Below are positions 6,630 through 34,638 of a stretch of 64,000 nucleotides of DNA, piece after piece. The DNA comes from Cloeon dipterum (Eukaryota; Arthropoda; Insecta; Ephemeroptera; Baetidae): the NCBI RefSeq assembly GCF_949628265.1, contig NC_088786.1:21659681-21723680 (forward strand). The letters are read 5' to 3'. Made by a program: the position numbers and the translations under genes. The stretch's first letter is position 1. Each line of letters opens with the position of its first letter. The notes under the pieces are model-generated. The model was given only the letters and a program-made list of their open reading frames with translations, had not been told where the DNA came from and did not search any database.

Positions 6630-7207
6630 TCACATGAATGAGCATCTGCTTTTGGACTTTTCCCTGTAACCAAAGAAATGGATTGGTCAGAAAAGTCATC
6701 GGGTAAATTTTTCAAGCACTGCAAATACAATAAAATAGAAACAACGCTAATTTAGAAACAACAAACACAAAACACGACTTACTCCATGCACTGTGTAGCT
6801 GCATTTTCTTTCCTGAAAATGTTAATTTCGTTTCTGAAGCTGTCTAGGTAAGCGCCGGCGAACTCCTCATTCAATTTTTCGAAAACCACTCCAAAACCAC
6901 ATTTGTCCTCAAGATCTTGCTTAACAAAACTAGGAATGCGAGCGAAGCCTTCACTCAGCTTCTCCTGAATTTGCGCGCGGTTTTGATCTGTGGACTGTCC
7001 TTTCTTTTCCAGCTCAACTCCTTTTCTGACCAAGTCCCACACCTCAGCAGTGTCTTTGTTCTTGTCGTCTTGCTGTTGCGTGACAAATAACTTGAAGGCG
7101 TCAACCATGGCAGCGTCCTCGAAATCCTTCAGTTCGGTGTTGCACCATGCCTCCAACTTTTTCGAGTCCACCTTCTTGAAAATCCGCTGGACGTCAGGTG
7201 ATGGCAT
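6630..7207 (-). CDS. Small helical protein, tandem paralogue A (unrecognised family)
   Basis: The first coding exon starts with ATG at 7207, just after a possible 5'UTR splice acceptor (TTTGTGCAG), and stays open to a TAA at 6779 (142 residues). A strong donor GA/GTAAGT at 6783 and an acceptor TTACAG before 6663 allow a short second exon ending in TGA at 6630, giving about 152 residues ending KSRCSFM. The protein is charged and apparently all-helical, with no signal peptide or membrane segment. Motifs shared with the neighbour at 8555-9031 are VWDL-RKG, an STD turn, IPS and VVFEKLNEEF. I do not recognise the family. The two genes lie in the same orientation about 1.3 kb apart, so recent tandem duplication is inferred. 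Which 3' end is used cannot be settled here. Confidence 0.62.
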
Positions 7208-8554
7208 TGTTGTACCGGTCGCTGCACAAATTCTCAAGAGCTATAATATGCCTCAGTTGAATTCTCACTTAGCTGGAATAGACTTCATTCGAAAAGTCCC
7301 CTCTTACGAGTTTGCGCGCAAGTCTAAAGCCGTAGCATGCCAGCTGAAACGCGATCAATACAACGACTATATAATCTTATCATTCAATAATTAACAAAGT
7401 CACACGCAGTTGAGGCTAAATAGAAAGGAAAGTCACAAGCAAAAGCGACACCAATCCACAAATCAGAATTAAAATTATCTTTAGTTTCGTTTCCGGCGGT
7501 TAGTAAATTTTACGTAGGTTATTTTTACACACTCGGCGCGCGGTACGAGTTATTTCGCTTAGCGCGCACCTCACATACAAAAACACACAAGTCGAAAAAT
7601 AAACTGGGCCGTGCGTCTTGAGAATTTCCTCTTGTTTATTCACACGGCGCGAAGGAACACCCTTTGCAGCTCGCTGCTCCTTCTCCACAAAATATATATA
7701 TTCTTGGCGTTGGAGTCGGCTGAACACAAAGTCAATGGGAAGCGCCTATTAAATACATGTGTGCACGCTTCGTTTGGCAGGGAGAGGCAGATGTGTGCCC
7801 TGCATAAAATACCCGCAACGGCTGCCTTTAAATTTTGTAGTGGAAGTTGACGTCACCTGCTGATAGGGCCGCAGGTGTACGTATCATGCCGGCAAAATTA
7901 GACCTAATTTATTTTACAGATTTTGCTGTCGAAGAAAAGCGCGTAAAAATTATGTTTACTTGTGATATTATTTGGAAGACAAAAGGAATAACAAAAATAC
8001 CTAATGGAAAAAACAAATTTTTGTGTCGTGAAACAGTTATTGATCGCATTAACTTTATTTTATCTCAATTAATAAACACTCTTTTACTATACCAAAAATA
8101 TTTAAATGATTTAATCAGTCCAACCTCAAAAAACAAACAGATCAGTTAAGGGAGTTCAAGTCTTTTCGTGTCATGCTCTTATTAAAATTGATTTTCCTTA
8201 CTTCAAGGATGATGGTGTTGACGGCGGGGAACACAATTTAAATTTAAGGCAGTATAACAACTTTCAGCTCACTTCTCAGCATCACAATCATTGGACTGCA
8301 ACAATTGAAGATGATTTTATATTTTAGTATTATGACTTTTTACTACATACAGGTTTTGGAAAATAAATCTAAAAGGCTGCGTTAAGATACTTACATCTCA
8401 CTTATTTATCTTGATATTGAGCTGTCGCGTCCTTGGCATTTAATTGAGTGTGCAGCTCTGACGGAAGCGCTCACTGCAAACAGATAAAAAATAAATTAAT
8501 TTTATTTCAAGATATTACCAAAGGTAATCCAATTAATGAAGAGAAAATAATTGT
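7208..8554. other. Spacer between the two tandem small genes
   Basis: This AT-rich spacer should contain the promoter and a 5'UTR exon of paralogue A and the 3' end of paralogue B. For paralogue B, an acceptor-like TTTGCAG at about 8469 would place TGA immediately downstream of a spliced CAA codon. An open frame at 7847-8149 (+) is unrecognisable and looks fortuitous. Confidence 0.5.
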
Positions 8555-9031
8555 TCAAATGGGACAATCCACATGAATATTTTCGACACAGCTATTTCTA
8601 TCGATCGAAACTTGCCTAGCAGACGGCTCTGTCGATTTGTGCGCTTTCCTATATTCACTAATTTCCACCTTGAAACCCTCGATCAAATCACTGCCGAATT
8701 CTTCATTCAGCTTGTCGAACACAACGGTCAACGCCACGTTCTGATCAACGTCTTCTTTGATGTTGCTCGGGATATAGGCGAGGCCGTCGCTCAACTCTCG
8801 GCGAACAAGGGTCCGAATTTCATCTGTACTTTCGCCACTTTTCTCCCGCAGGGCTCCTTTTCTCAGCAGGTCCCAAACTGTTGCGGTCGGCCCATTTTTG
8901 TGCTGCGTGACGTACGAGACGAAGGCCTGGATCATAGCTTGGTCATCCAGACAGTCGAGTGTGGACTCGTCCCACACGATCAACTTGCGCCCCGCTTTCT
9001 TGTAGATTTTCTGCCGCTCGGCGGAACTCAT
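8555..9031 (-). CDS. Small helical protein, tandem paralogue B (unrecognised family)
   Basis: ATG at 9031 directly follows an acceptor-like TTTTGCAG, as in the neighbouring paralogue, which suggests a shared gene structure with a noncoding first exon. The open frame gives 158 residues ending NIHVDCPI. A donor-like CAA/GTTTCG within the last 25 codons could join to an acceptor near 8469 and give a shorter end at SARQ. Motifs aligned with paralogue A are ATVWDLLRKG, GESTDEIR, LSDGLAYIPS and VVFDKLNEEFGSDL. The product is soluble and rich in charged residues, and no known domain is visible. The conserved motifs together with good codon structure make it a real gene in my view; its function is unknown. 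Confidence 0.62.
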   Translation of the reverse strand: MSSAERQKIYKKAGRKLIVWDESTLDCLDDQAMIQAFVSYVTQHKNGPTATVWDLLRKGALREKSGESTDEIRTLVRRELSDGLAYIPSNIKEDVDQNVALTVVFDKLNEEFGSDLIEGFKVEISEYRKAHKSTEPSARQVSIDRNSCVENIHVDCPI

Positions 9032-10429
9032 CACTGCAAAATTGCTCTTCTCGTGTCACACACACTGACACTTGATGGTTGTTATGGTGCTGTTGGTGTG
9101 CACTACGCGGCTGCTAAGGACGGACTGCTCGGGAACGCAAACGCACACTTTCCTGCCACGAGCGTGCGCGAGAGTCGCGGTTCGCGGTTTCCTTTCGACT
9201 GTGAGAATCGAAGCCGAATCGGTGCCAAAAAATATTATGTGCCTGTGGGAAATTTAAAAGCAGCAGACATATTTAAAATAACAGAAAATATTTTCGTGCA
9301 ATTGTTGTTACGAAAGGCATTTCCACACACGATATATATATATGAGGAAATTTGTTTTCGTTATGGCCGGGTAATAAAGTATTTTTAGGAATCATTGAAT
9401 TAGTAAAGTTGCACAGTGTACACTTTTAATTATCTGCCAATAGTTACATAGAAGCGTTAACAGATTGAGCGCAAACGTTATTTTACATAAAATATAAAAG
9501 ATTTTCCCGATCTGCCCTATTTAGAAAAAATAGGAGGATATAGAAACTGACAAAATAAAACGGGGAATATATTATTAGTATTATCCGTTGTCTTTGTTAG
9601 TGTCAGACTTTTCTTATTTATTTATATTTTTAAGATTTTTAATAACGCGTCTCAATAATGAGCCAAAAATTTGAAAATACGGTACAAGCAGAAATAGTCA
9701 TATATATAACAATATCATGTGACCAACAAAATATCACCGTCCCAATCTCGAGATAATAATATTTTGTTGCGTGACCAAAACCATTTATTTGCACAAGATA
9801 TCCCCAAGCGCGTGTTCATTCAAAAGCTAATTCTTATCTGGAGTACCCTATAGAAATTTTATGTACACATGCCTCGTTTTTATTTGACATTTTCATGATT
9901 TTTATCATGTATTATTGAAGTACTTTCCTTTGGGGTTTTCCTGAACCTTTTTTTATCACACTCGCACCAGCTCAGAACAAAACAATCTAATACAAGCAAC
10001 ACAAAAGATGCATTTGGCATTTAAAATTGGAATTTATTTATATATGCTGGAAAGTAGGTTTTGGAATTATTACAGAAAACTATACGTAATTTTTTTTTTT
10101 AAAAAAAAGAACATTCATACACAGCTAATCGCAGAACACTTGTCGCGTGTAGATGTAAAATAACATCATCTGTTTTCCTTTATGATAATATTTCTTGGCA
10201 GCTGAGCAAAGAATAATGCAGTGTGCCGTAATTATACGCCCATCATTAGAGGCACAGGCTGCAGGGAAATAATCCAGCTACATAATGAGACAGGTATATT
10301 ATAATCTCCCATAAGTCACATCTCATGTTCTGATCCACATTAAAACAATGCAATTGATATCGTTCCATTGTTTTTTATCATAACAATTCAAAAATTAAAA
10401 CAAAGCTGAATCAAAAAATGTTTCCTACC
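9032..10429. other. Intergenic region, no gene seen
   Basis: The right part should hold the promoter and 5'UTR of paralogue B, and the part next to 10430 the 3'UTR of the zinc-finger gene. The remainder is AT-rich with no supported feature. Confidence 0.5.
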
Positions 10430-30087: not shown

Positions 30088-32589
30088 AGGTATTAATTTT
30101 GCTTCTTGACATAATTATTTCCGAATACCAAAATTACAAAAAAAAATATATATGTTTACTATTTTTACCGTTCGGGACAGTTTTCTTTGCCCACTGACAG
30201 AATATGGTGCCATTCTGCTGCGATTTCAAATATAATCTTTGTCCCTCAGCCCTTAACATAAATATAACAGAATTCCATTTGATGTTCTAAATAAATCTAA
30301 AATCAGTTTAGATTTCTGAGTAAAACGAACATCAGAGATTCTAAGTTCTTGACCAATTATTTTTCACGTTTCTAATGATTGGCTGAGCTGAATTTAGGTT
30401 TTAGATTAGAAATTAATTTTGTCTTTGTCTGGTATCCTTTAACAGCATATTGAAATTTTTGGAGGAGAAAAGACAAAAAATATTGAACAAATTTTTTCGA
30501 CTTAAGTTATATTGCAATTTTGGTTTATTGTTTTGTTCACTCAAAAATGTATGCCTCAAAAATCACTGGACTGCATTGTTTAAAACCAGAGGTGAAATGA
30601 TTTGCAGTGCACTGTTTCTTTAAACTGAATGTAGATTTTACCGCCTAGACCCGTTTTTTTATAATTTATTCTATATTTCTTTTCCGGCTGCAATTTTTGG
30701 GAGAATCTTGTAGAACAAGCAATCATTTTACTATATTATTTCGCAGTGTTCATAAGGGCATTTGAAGGCATTAAAATGCGCGATCAAATGGTATTTTGCT
30801 AGACACCCCAGATGAACCAAGCTCACAAATTTGTGAATTAGCTTTTTTTATTGGAATATGGAGCAGAAAAAGTCATGCTGCCCATGTTAGGTCCCCCTTT
30901 CAAGCACAAAAATTTACTTACAAGGAGGAATTTGCACACTGATATGATTCCATTTTCAGTAACTCTAATGATCTAAGCATAACCGGTCCTGCATCGAGAG
31001 GACGGAGCAGTTGATCATGCGCTCACCTAAGAGCAAAGCCAGAGAGTGGCCAGTCTGACCAGCCTTCACCAACTATATAGCTGATGATGTGTTAGGCTTC
31101 CTGTGGTCCAATGCCCAGCGAGTTGGAAGCTGAAATCGGAGCACTTCTCACCTCACCTATGCTGTCTTCCTGATGAGCAATCTTTGATCTCTGTGCGCAC
31201 TTGCCTGTAAGATTCCCTTTGCTATTTTGCAAATTTTATACACCTATTTAAAAAGGAAAGGCTCTTTAGAGTTGAATCTGAATAGTCAGTATCCACTAGT
31301 GAGCTCGCAACATGATGTGAGCTTTAGTTCAAACTATTTTTTTCTTATCATGTACAAAAATATTTACCCTCAATGAAATCCTTGTACAGTGTAAGTAATA
31401 AAGCATTTTATGTTTTTGAAATTATAATTGCAATTCAATTTGTTAATTTCTTAAAATTCCTGTTGATTTCTTTCTATTACTTGGCTGCCATTATAGGCTA
31501 GCCAACAATTATTTGCGTAAAAGGCACTGAAGCACAGGTTTCGAACCTTCAGTATCAGCTTCTTTTCTTTCCACTTAGAGCCATCATTCCAAGAGGTCTC
31601 CTTTGAACACTTGAGGACTTTCCCAAGTGCTCAACGACTGTTTTCAGGTTAAATAATCACAACTATGTAATTAGAAATTTAAAGTCCTTTTTTTAAAAAA
31701 ATAAGGTTTAACCTTCTTACTGCTTTTTAATCTCCATTACAAAACTGTTTTACCATTCTTCACAGTAAAATTATCAAAAAAGAGCCATGTATAACTCAAA
31801 ATGAGTGACTTAAATTTAATTAATAATATCTGAAGTTCCACAAATAAATTATTTCAGCAGTCAGATTTTAACATGAGAACACCAATTAATTGGGATTTAA
31901 AGACTGGCAAGTTATTTTGGATCTAATACTTTTATTTTTTCTGAGCCAATTTCATTACCTAAATTATGAAAATGAAGAATTCTTACGAATCATAGTAATA
32001 TTTGGTACTATACGCTTCCTAATATTTAAAAATCGGTTTCAACAGGCAGAGCATTGATTATTCTGGGCATCATGACGGATGGAATCTGGGCTGACATTTG
32101 AGGCAACATAGTCCCATGCAAAGATCATTAGGGGAGGAACATTGTGCCTATCGAGTGCTTGATCCACCACTTAGGTTTATTGCGCCCTGATACCAATTCG
32201 TTTCAGTTTTTGACCAAATGTATCACCCATTTCAATACATATAATGAGTATACCATAAGAATTTCAAATTTTGCGATCAGTGGATGGCACAAGTCCAGTG
32301 TAATGTTTTTCCACATGTATCTCATGCCGGCCATGACCCTTACAACCCTTTATTGAGGAATAAAACGTTATGTAGGTGGAGAAATCCTCCCAAATCACTG
32401 TTAAGCAAAATATGACTTCCTACGATAAATAAATCTGACGCAACACATGACACATACTTGATCCAACCCAAAACAAGTATCAGTGGTGCACAAAGCATAA
32501 TTTAAGATGACGCGTCCATCCGCAATGTTGCACCAAAAATAATTAATGAATTTGAAATCACCCAAATCACCGCAAACATATCAACTTAA
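30088..32589. other. Gene-free stretch left of METTL5
   Basis: AT-rich sequence without a credible exon on either strand. The METTL5 3'UTR should occupy the right edge. A GC-richer patch at 30980-31210 contains TGATGA and CTGA motifs but no supporting stem; see the rejected items. Confidence 0.5.
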
Positions 32590-33222
32590 TTAATTATTAT
32601 CGTTGAAACTAAATCTAAAGAAGTCCACTTCAATGTCTACTGATTGTTTTTTGTGGAATCGATAAGTGGCAGGCAAATCGTAGCGGAGCTCTGCAACAAC
32701 CTTGGCTTCCACACCCCACTGTTTGGCCTTGCTCAGGACGTGCTGCCTGGTCGAAGTCTTGTGCAGGGAGTAAACTGCACGTGTTGCCAACCTCAAGCCC
32801 TCCTGCAAGAATGTCATGTCCGCACCTTTGTTCTTTTTGGTGCCGAACGGTGGGTTCATCAGCACTGTGTCCACACTTTTTTCCCACCTCGACCCTAAAC
32901 CAGCTTCGACGTCTCCCCTGATGATCTCCACTGCTATTTCAGTTTCCTCCAGATTCTGCTTGGCAATGTTGATGGCCTCCTGGTCTATTTCAAAGCCGTA
33001 ACAAACGCGAGCGCCCTGAAGAGCAGCTCCGATGGCCAGGGTGCCACAGCCCATACCCAGGTCAGCAACCACTTTTCCATCCAGATCCCCGAAAGACTCT
33101 TCTGCGGTGTGAAGCATGCAGGCAGCAACGTGAGGTGAGGTTGCGTACTGCTCGAGCAGCACTTTGGGCTTCTCGAAGCCATCCAGTTGTTGCAACAGCT
33201 CTTCTAGTTTGCGCAGCTTCAT
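32590..33222 (-). CDS. Mettl5: METTL5, 18S rRNA m6A methyltransferase
   Basis: METTL5, with TRMT112 as partner, methylates one adenosine of 18S rRNA at N6. The intronless coding region gives 210 residues, the usual size. The Rossmann-type fold shows the SAM-binding motif DLGMGCG (residues 54-60), an acidic residue after strand 2 (GFEID, 76-80) and the catalytic NPPF motif (123-126) followed by GTKKNKGAD. The N-terminus MKLRKLEELLQQLDGFEKPK and the LEQYATSPHVAACML helix are family hallmarks. The start is fixed by alignment to the family. Its ATG shares bases with the stop codon of SOSS-C (ATGA at 33222-33219), leaving no room for its own promoter unless one lies inside SOSS-C. A shared transcript is inferred. 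Confidence 0.97.
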   Translation of the reverse strand: MKLRKLEELLQQLDGFEKPKVLLEQYATSPHVAACMLHTAEESFGDLDGKVVADLGMGCGTLAIGAALQGARVCYGFEIDQEAINIAKQNLEETEIAVEIIRGDVEAGLGSRWEKSVDTVLMNPPFGTKKNKGADMTFLQEGLRLATRAVYSLHKTSTRQHVLSKAKQWGVEAKVVAELRYDLPATYRFHKKQSVDIEVDFFRFSFNDNN

Positions 33223-34638
33223 TTTGAGTCAAAGCGGGGGAGGACAGGAAGGATGAAATTGCCAAAGGCAGAGTCTTGGGGCACGAAAAATCCAAATGAC
33301 TGGGAATGGGCTAACTGCAGTTGAATGCTACGCTGGTTGCCGGCATCATGAGCCTAAAAATTATTTTCAATTTTCGTCAATCATTAAATTGTGTTGTATA
33401 TTACTTGGTTTTGAGCAGCACTGGCATTGCTGAGTTGGGTGCCTTGTTTTAGTAACAGCTGCTTCTTCTGTTGGTGCAGGTCTTCCAAGATCTTCTTGTT
33501 TTGTATCTCTGTGAAATGTTTGAAATTATTAAATTTTCTAAAAGTGCTCTGAAATTTAAAAACACGTATTGGTGGAATAATGAGTTTTTTTTTAACCCGA
33601 CTACACAGTGGAGCTATTTTTCATGAATAAAACAATAATTCACAGATACTACCAAAATATATATAAAAAATACAAAATCTAGCAACATTATATTATGTAT
33701 AATAAAATCATACAATAAAGTACCTATTTCATGTAAAAACACAAACTGGTACCAGCAACAGAATAAACTGATTTTTTTTAATAAAATACTAAAGAATTTA
33801 CAAAAAGGGACTGGTTTGGGAATGAAATATTTAAGGAGGTACATAAGTTTTAAAGAACCGAGGATGTCTGTGGAGTCCGTTTCAATTTAACAAATGTCGT
33901 AATAATTAAATATAACACTGATTCATAAATACATAATAATCTAATTTTTGAAATAGGCGACCACTCGAGGTTGTGTTCATAATGGCAATAAATTAAACCA
34001 GGCTTCATCCTCATTGCAAAAAATTGTCGTTTTTAATCTCTCGACAATAGTTTCGACGTCATCCAGTACGTCCTAAACATGAGTAAAAAACAATTAAAAT
34101 CAATACAATATCTAACGTCACATCTTAAAAAGTACAAAAAAATTCCGACATAAAAATTCCATACACTTCTGCACAAATATCAATCCACCTATTCACGAGG
34201 CAATTATTGAGGCAAGCTCCAAAGACCAAATGTGAAAAATTCTAAGCCACCCCTTTGTTAAATAAACGCACATCTCACAGGTGGTAGAGAGCCTTTTCGT
34301 TCCGTGAGCTAAAATTTCCCCTTTCAGCGCTTACAAATTTTTTCCAAATATCACAATGCAAGTAGCTGGGGTTACTAATCACATTTTCTGAGCCTTCCAT
34401 TGCCACCGCTTCCTAAACCACCCTCTTCCACAAATTCGTTTCTTGCTTCAACACCTCCACATTCTTCCAATCAAAATTATAGTTGAGAGATTAAAAACGA
34501 CAATTTTTTGCAACGAGGATGAAGCCTGGTTTAATTTATTGCCATTGTGACATGTCATAATAATCTGTTTAAATAGTTTAAGTTCAAACCTTGTCTCATG
34601 TTAGGGGTGACCGGCGGGGTTTGAGATGGAAAAGACAT
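33219..34638 (-). CDS. INIP: SOSS complex subunit C (INIP)
   Basis: SOSS-C (INIP/hSSBIP1) joins SSB1/2 and INTS3 in the single-stranded-DNA-binding complex used in double-strand-break repair. Three coding exons, 34638-34590, 33508-33405 and 33353-33219, encode 95 residues. The hallmark core is IQNKKILEDLHQQKKQLLLK. The C-terminal family signature is SFGFFVPQDSAFGNFILPVL followed by PRFDSK and TGA. MSFPSQTPP is taken as the start; the same exon is open further upstream to an acceptor near 34709, so a longer N-terminus or 5'UTR is possible. Intron 1 (1081 bases) holds an inverted-repeat element. The stop codon overlaps the METTL5 start. No other exon is needed. Confidence 0.92.
33943..34555. 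mobile_element. Inverted-repeat element inside SOSS-C intron 1
   Basis: Inverted arms of about 61 bases at 33982-34042 and 34485-34546 match almost perfectly (AATGGCAATAAATTAAACCA, then CAGGCTTCATCCTC and TTGTCGTTTTTAATCTCTC). The 440-base interior shows no open frame. An 11-base direct repeat CATAATAATCT occurs outside each side (33932-33942 and 34556-34566) and may be a target duplication, though the spacing from the arm ends is uneven. It looks like a non-autonomous DNA transposon. Confidence 0.75.

Follow-up and report, generated by a model that had tools for sequence, protein, structure and literature searches.

The SOSS-C and METTL5 genes of the mayfly Cloeon dipterum meet in a four-base ATGA overlap. 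To judge from the sequence of the locus, the two probably form one bicistronic nuclear gene in which METTL5 is translated by leaky scanning plus reinitiation. Most likely it belongs to a pancrustacean pairing of uORF and mORF that entered the literature in 2008, when the upstream protein was still unnamed. The window analyzed is a 64,000-nucleotide stretch of contig NC_088786.1 (assembly GCF_949628265.1), and all coordinates below are positions within it; PMC numbers identify the papers cited. The features of the two genes and of their junction are:

34590-34638, - strand: proposed SOSS-C coding exon 1 (MSFPSQTPPVTPNMRQ..., start context GGAAATGT); splice model only
33405-33508, - strand: SOSS-C coding exon 2; splice model, with a Pfam SOSSC match of exons 2 plus 3
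33219-33353, - strand: SOSS-C coding exon 3, ending in TGA at 33221-33219; Pfam SOSSC and PDB 4owt_C
32590-33222, - strand: METTL5, a single exon of 210 aa (start context CAAAATGA); open reading frame, genome match and homology
33219-33222, - strand: the ATGA stop/start overlap, in two different frames; read from the sequence
33229-33231, - strand: a TGA in the METTL5 frame, three codons 5' of the METTL5 ATG, which fixes the start

The original prediction of a stop/start overlap was borne out with exact codon coordinates. The SOSS-C TGA (33221-33219) and the METTL5 ATG (33222-33220) have bases in common on the - strand, giving ATGA at 33222-33219 with the two frames differing. The junction reads ...CGC TTT GAC TCA AAA TGA, overlapping ATG AAG CTG CGC; the last SOSS-C codon is AAA, followed by TGA, and AAATGA includes the METTL5 ATG. 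Immediately 5' of that ATG the METTL5 frame reads TGA CTC AAA. Because of this in-frame TGA a METTL5 start further upstream is impossible without splicing, and the intervening CTCAAA contains no AG acceptor. The claim that there is no space for a promoter or an acceptor holds only within the six bases that separate this TGA from the ATG; a METTL5 leader could start at any point further upstream, such as within intron 1 or within exon 3 of SOSS-C.

Both proteins were compared with their families. METTL5 residues 2-208 align with human METTL5 (chain 6h2u_A, residues 5-211; 1.7e-80), a full-length match that includes the NPPF motif, and the protein is therefore complete. SOSS-C was rebuilt by a splice model from three exons (34638-34590, 33508-33405 and 33353-33219) that encode 95 residues plus a stop. 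It matches the Pfam SOSSC model (PF15925) at 7.9e-17 with its best stretch at residues 52-92, and the conserved SOSS-C/INIP C-terminus FGN-ILPVLPR is present. Human SOSS-C (PDB 4owt_C) aligns with residues 50-94 of the 95, so the C-terminal end is the family's own end. The N-terminus is less sure than the C-terminal end. Exon 1 has an open frame, a GT donor and an AG acceptor, and no ATG occurs in the 122 nt that precede it. Exons 2 and 3 match the Pfam model in two stretches, one of them in exon 3, and they score 63.7 bits without exon 1 and 62.9 bits with it. Residues 1-51 alone gave no Pfam SOSSC match, and independent homology support for exon 1, sought with that model, was not found; we infer the exon from the splice model. 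The proposal that both proteins are complete is thus upheld for METTL5 and for the C-terminal end of SOSS-C, but not for SOSS-C exon 1.

The Pfam SOSSC, human SOSS-C and human METTL5 alignments place the SOSS-C end and the METTL5 start at their family positions. To judge from these alignments, the ATGA overlap is more than a mechanical coincidence of open reading frames. The same placement bears on whether the overlap could be an artefact of the assembly or of the annotation, for instance through a frameshift that splits one gene or through the collapse of a region. The locus is known from the assembly alone rather than from reads. However, the two frames belong to unrelated families whose boundaries fall where they should, and in flies there is a precedent in the ORF upstream of CG9666 (PMC2276209), so that an artefact seems exceedingly improbable.

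When searched against its own genome (190 Mb in 10 contigs), METTL5 gave one strong match (4.3e-138), the other three matches listed having E values of 0.10 to 1.9. SOSS-C gave three matches, all at the present locus. The single strong METTL5 match and the confinement of the SOSS-C matches to this locus are why both appear to be the working copies of the genome. A METTL5 retrocopy or duplicate, considered as the gene is intronless, was set aside since a second strong match was not found and hence no intron-bearing parent copy was seen. Searches for METTL5 relatives in viral and genome contig collections, which hold no animal genomes, gave 11 and 23 pattern matches and 0 tblastn relatives.

The locus has two non-fused ORFs of real proteins on the same strand, with the N-terminal exon of SOSS-C taken from the splice model. 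Two further features bear on whether they share a message:

32349-32354, - strand: the first AATAAA downstream of METTL5, with a second at 32181-32176
33977-34550, no strand assigned: a repeat element of ~574 nt inside SOSS-C intron 1, with 80-nt inverted ends that are 93% complementary

No AATAAA or ATTAAA hexamer lies between the start of SOSS-C exon 3 and the METTL5 stop codon. Intron 1 of SOSS-C (1081 nt) contains four (34540, 34535, 34037 and 33782). As METTL5 is intronless, all splice junctions in the model precede the SOSS-C stop, which may spare a bicistronic mRNA from junction-dependent decay. The hexamer pattern and the intronless METTL5 fit a single bicistronic mRNA, although they are also compatible with an mRNA carrying METTL5 only. 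We consider the bicistronic mRNA the simplest reading. Transcription from one promoter upstream of SOSS-C exon 1 would yield a spliced mRNA with the SOSS-C frame (95 codons as modelled) ahead of the 210-codon METTL5 frame, ending at poly(A) sites 3' of METTL5.

METTL5 might instead be made mainly from an mRNA of its own, which would arise from an alternative promoter in SOSS-C intron 1 or from alternative splicing that removes or breaks SOSS-C, with the bicistronic transcript contributing little METTL5. In FlyBase, monocistronic forms are known for both genes at 45 of the 159 dicistronic loci and for one gene at 69; where the downstream gene has such a form, it usually comes from a downstream or external promoter (PMC4528330). 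At the present locus a plausible alternative acceptor, TTTTTAAATTTCAG (33562-33549), lies 40 nt before the exon 2 acceptor on the - strand and has the longer pyrimidine stretch. Its use would start the exon at 33548 and shrink SOSS-C to 19 codons, and skipping of exon 2 (104 nt) would leave 18. After either event only short ORFs would precede METTL5. The region 34589-33223 contains three Inr-like matches, none of which has a correctly placed TATA box or DPE. The two Inr-like matches upstream of exon 1 (35000-34640) likewise have neither, and this test is therefore non-discriminating. The repeat element in intron 1 could hold the putative alternative promoter. A genome search with it gave 309 candidate places, of which 40 were scored, yielding 78 matches (self and arm matches included), many of them ~80% identical. 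Taken with these points, a METTL5 produced mainly from its own mRNA is a possibility that we regard as on the unlikely side.

Translation of METTL5 from the bicistronic mRNA would have to contend with the AUG codons that precede it. In the model mRNA those at 34638 and 34599 are in the SOSS-C frame, and those at 33427, 33349 and 33346 are in another frame, where they open ORFs of 21, 12 and 11 codons, respectively, with a common stop:

33311-33427, - strand: a short out-of-frame ORF in SOSS-C, spliced from 33427-33405 and 33353-33311, with the common stop TAG at 33313-33311

The AUG at 33427 is additional to the out-of-frame ATGATG on which the original prediction had based its argument against simple leaky scanning. 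Counting the METTL5 start there are four out-of-frame AUGs, compared with means of 1.26 and 1.60 in two synonymous randomizations (P of at least four = 0.008 and 0.017; these values are rough, as the codon pool consisted of the two ORFs only). In the bicistrons of green algae, where there is support for leaky scanning, AUGs are depleted before ORF 2 (PMC11892635). By synonymous randomization no such depletion was seen before METTL5. The ATGATG thus does weaken pure leaky scanning. Nevertheless, the 12-codon ORF that it opens stops 88 nt short of the METTL5 AUG, so that METTL5 translation need not be blocked. This distance from the short-ORF stop permits leaky scanning plus reinitiation.

The start context of SOSS-C is GGAAATGT, that start being a product of the splice model that lacks homology support, versus CAAAATGA for METTL5. 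The optimal fly start context is CAAAATG (PMC2276209, PMC9681215). Provided that SOSS-C exon 1 is right, these contexts fit leaky scanning past SOSS-C plus reinitiation. Some ribosomes would leak past the weaker SOSS-C AUG, translate an out-of-frame ORF of 11-21 codons and reinitiate 88 nt later. Others would finish SOSS-C at its UGA and then start again on the METTL5 AUG that overlaps it. The METTL5 AUG (CAAAAUG) should be strong and would be reached by both routes, and hence a mixture of leaky scanning plus reinitiation and termination-reinitiation is expected. The shared SOSS-C/METTL5 mRNA and both initiation routes are what we infer from the features of the locus.

Under a purely coupled mechanism, ribosomes fresh from translating SOSS-C would be the sole source of METTL5. 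As this is one special form of the bicistron, its probability overlaps with that of the reading given above. AUGA is a recognized overlap form in coupled termination-reinitiation (PMC5972666), and among 24 human transcripts that were tested, five seemed to depend on termination-reinitiation (PMC5972666, PMC3923131). The other features looked for at the present junction gave no support for such coupling. The 100 nt upstream have no match to UGGGA (TURBS-like motif 1) or to UGGRA, RNA folding near the junction is ordinary (z 0.27) with no excess of structure, and the SOSS-C C-terminus is not rich in Asp, unlike that of CASQ2 (PMC5972666, PMC3923131). Note that some coupled systems have no TURBS motif (PMC5972666). 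In the one human case analyzed in detail the downstream protein was made at a level about 82-fold below that of the upstream product, and reinitiation is said to be presumably very rare once a long ORF has been translated (PMC5972666). This rarity and the missing signals also count against the mixed reading, as does a predicted limit of 55 codons for reinitiation (PMC4705651), although conserved fly uORFs have a mean of 70 aa (PMC2276209). Of the termination-reinitiation mechanism first proposed for this locus the AUGA overlap alone stands, and its pure form is, in our estimate, quite improbable.

The statement that such arrangements are rare in animal nuclear genes also went too far, since for Drosophila by itself the 2015 annotation counted 159 dicistronic pairs (PMC4528330). 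The original prediction puts more weight on rarity and on AUGA coupling than is warranted. In FlyBase release 6.04, which holds those 159 pairs (Crosby et al. 2015, PMC4528330), 45 of the loci seem to be dicistronic only, and a later count is of 196 annotated bicistronic fly genes (PMC9681215). Stop-to-start spacing in the FlyBase loci that have polycistronic transcripts only is -34 to 319 nt, a range into which the present ATGA overlap falls. The fly loci were called from cDNA, RNA-Seq and start-site data (PMC4528330), whereas the present locus is called from genomic DNA alone. Dicistronic genes are established as a kind in insects, and the present locus would add one more member.

The closest fly counterpart involves CG9666, which we take to be fly Mettl5. 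Fly SOSS-C has ~130 residues, and the name SOSS-C was given after 2008. In that year Hayden and Bosco reported that CG9666 (Drosophila melanogaster 76A3) has a conserved uORF of 129 aa, with Ka/Ks of 0.29 for the uORF and 0.04 for the main ORF (both p<0.0001), and the most distant relative of the pair was the brine shrimp (Artemia franciscana) EST BQ605225 (PMC2276209). The fly pair resembles the present one in having an ORF of similar size 5' of a methyltransferase ORF; in the fly the uORF is conserved and lies on one transcript with the main ORF, there is purifying selection, and the pair is found as far as Artemia (PMC2276209). The fly uORF has 129 aa versus 95 aa for SOSS-C here. In the available passages of that paper the distance between stop and start is not given, and "soss" is absent from its main text (PMC2276209). 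Given the agreement of the 129 aa with the length of fly SOSS-C, and the identity of CG9666 as fly Mettl5, the CG9666 uORF is probably SOSS-C. The arrangement was probably inherited from an early pancrustacean ancestor.

We know of no link that places SOSS-C and METTL5 in one complex. In this they differ from the Drosophila sloth1/sloth2 peptides, likely paralogues for which joint action in one complex has been proposed, and the sloth ORFs are separated by a 5-nt spacer rather than overlapping (PMC9681215). The two loci are alike in that their ORFs nearly touch or meet, with a non-optimal start context for the first ORF and CAAAATG for the second in sloth1/sloth2, where reporters support leaky scanning and inhibition of ORF2 by ORF1 (PMC9681215). 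Stop/start overlaps are also found in the mouse embryonic GAD mRNA (UGAUG), which has putative TURBS motifs (PMC5972666), and in segment 7 of influenza B (UAAUG), which has a tested reinitiation signal (PMC3035654); neither kind of signal was found at the present junction. In the literature searched, no paper was found that joins METTL5 with "dicistronic" or SOSS-C with METTL5. The terms "bicistronic" and "SOSS" do not occur in the available passages of a 2026 paper on fly Mettl5 (PMC13155753), and those of a 2015 report on CG9666 knock-down make no mention of an upstream ORF (PMC4704710).

If the bicistronic gene is confirmed, an arthropod rRNA methyltransferase gene would depend on non-standard initiation behind a DNA-repair subunit. 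RNAi directed at either ORF could then remove both, mutations in ORF1 could change the output of ORF2, and any genetic study of fly Mettl5 or SOSS-C would need controls for what happens to the partner. The tight AUGA with its nested short ORF would also provide a convenient native test of second-cistron translation in insects. METTL5 has been linked to intellectual disability in humans. A far more speculative proposal, to which we attach very little credence, is that arthropods have an ancient and obligate SOSS-C/METTL5 bicistron whose rRNA m6A writer can be made only by non-standard initiation at AUGA, and that METTL5-modified ribosomes might alter leakiness or reinitiation on the mRNA of METTL5 itself. 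Were it true, there would be a translational feedback loop, and a DNA-repair subunit would be tied to ribosome modification.

Some minor observations concern other parts of the window and the genome. Exact 25-nt arrays of TTAGG or TCAGG numbered 0 in the whole genome; the telomeres may be of another kind, be missing from the assembly or have been missed by the method. The Pfam telomerase model found no match in the genome, nor in 14 controls. The ORF at 6779-7240 (- strand) has no Pfam match. By eye it resembles a second - strand ORF at 8555-9055 in the stretches VWDL-RKG and VVF-KLNEEF, and the two are possibly members of a small tandem family.
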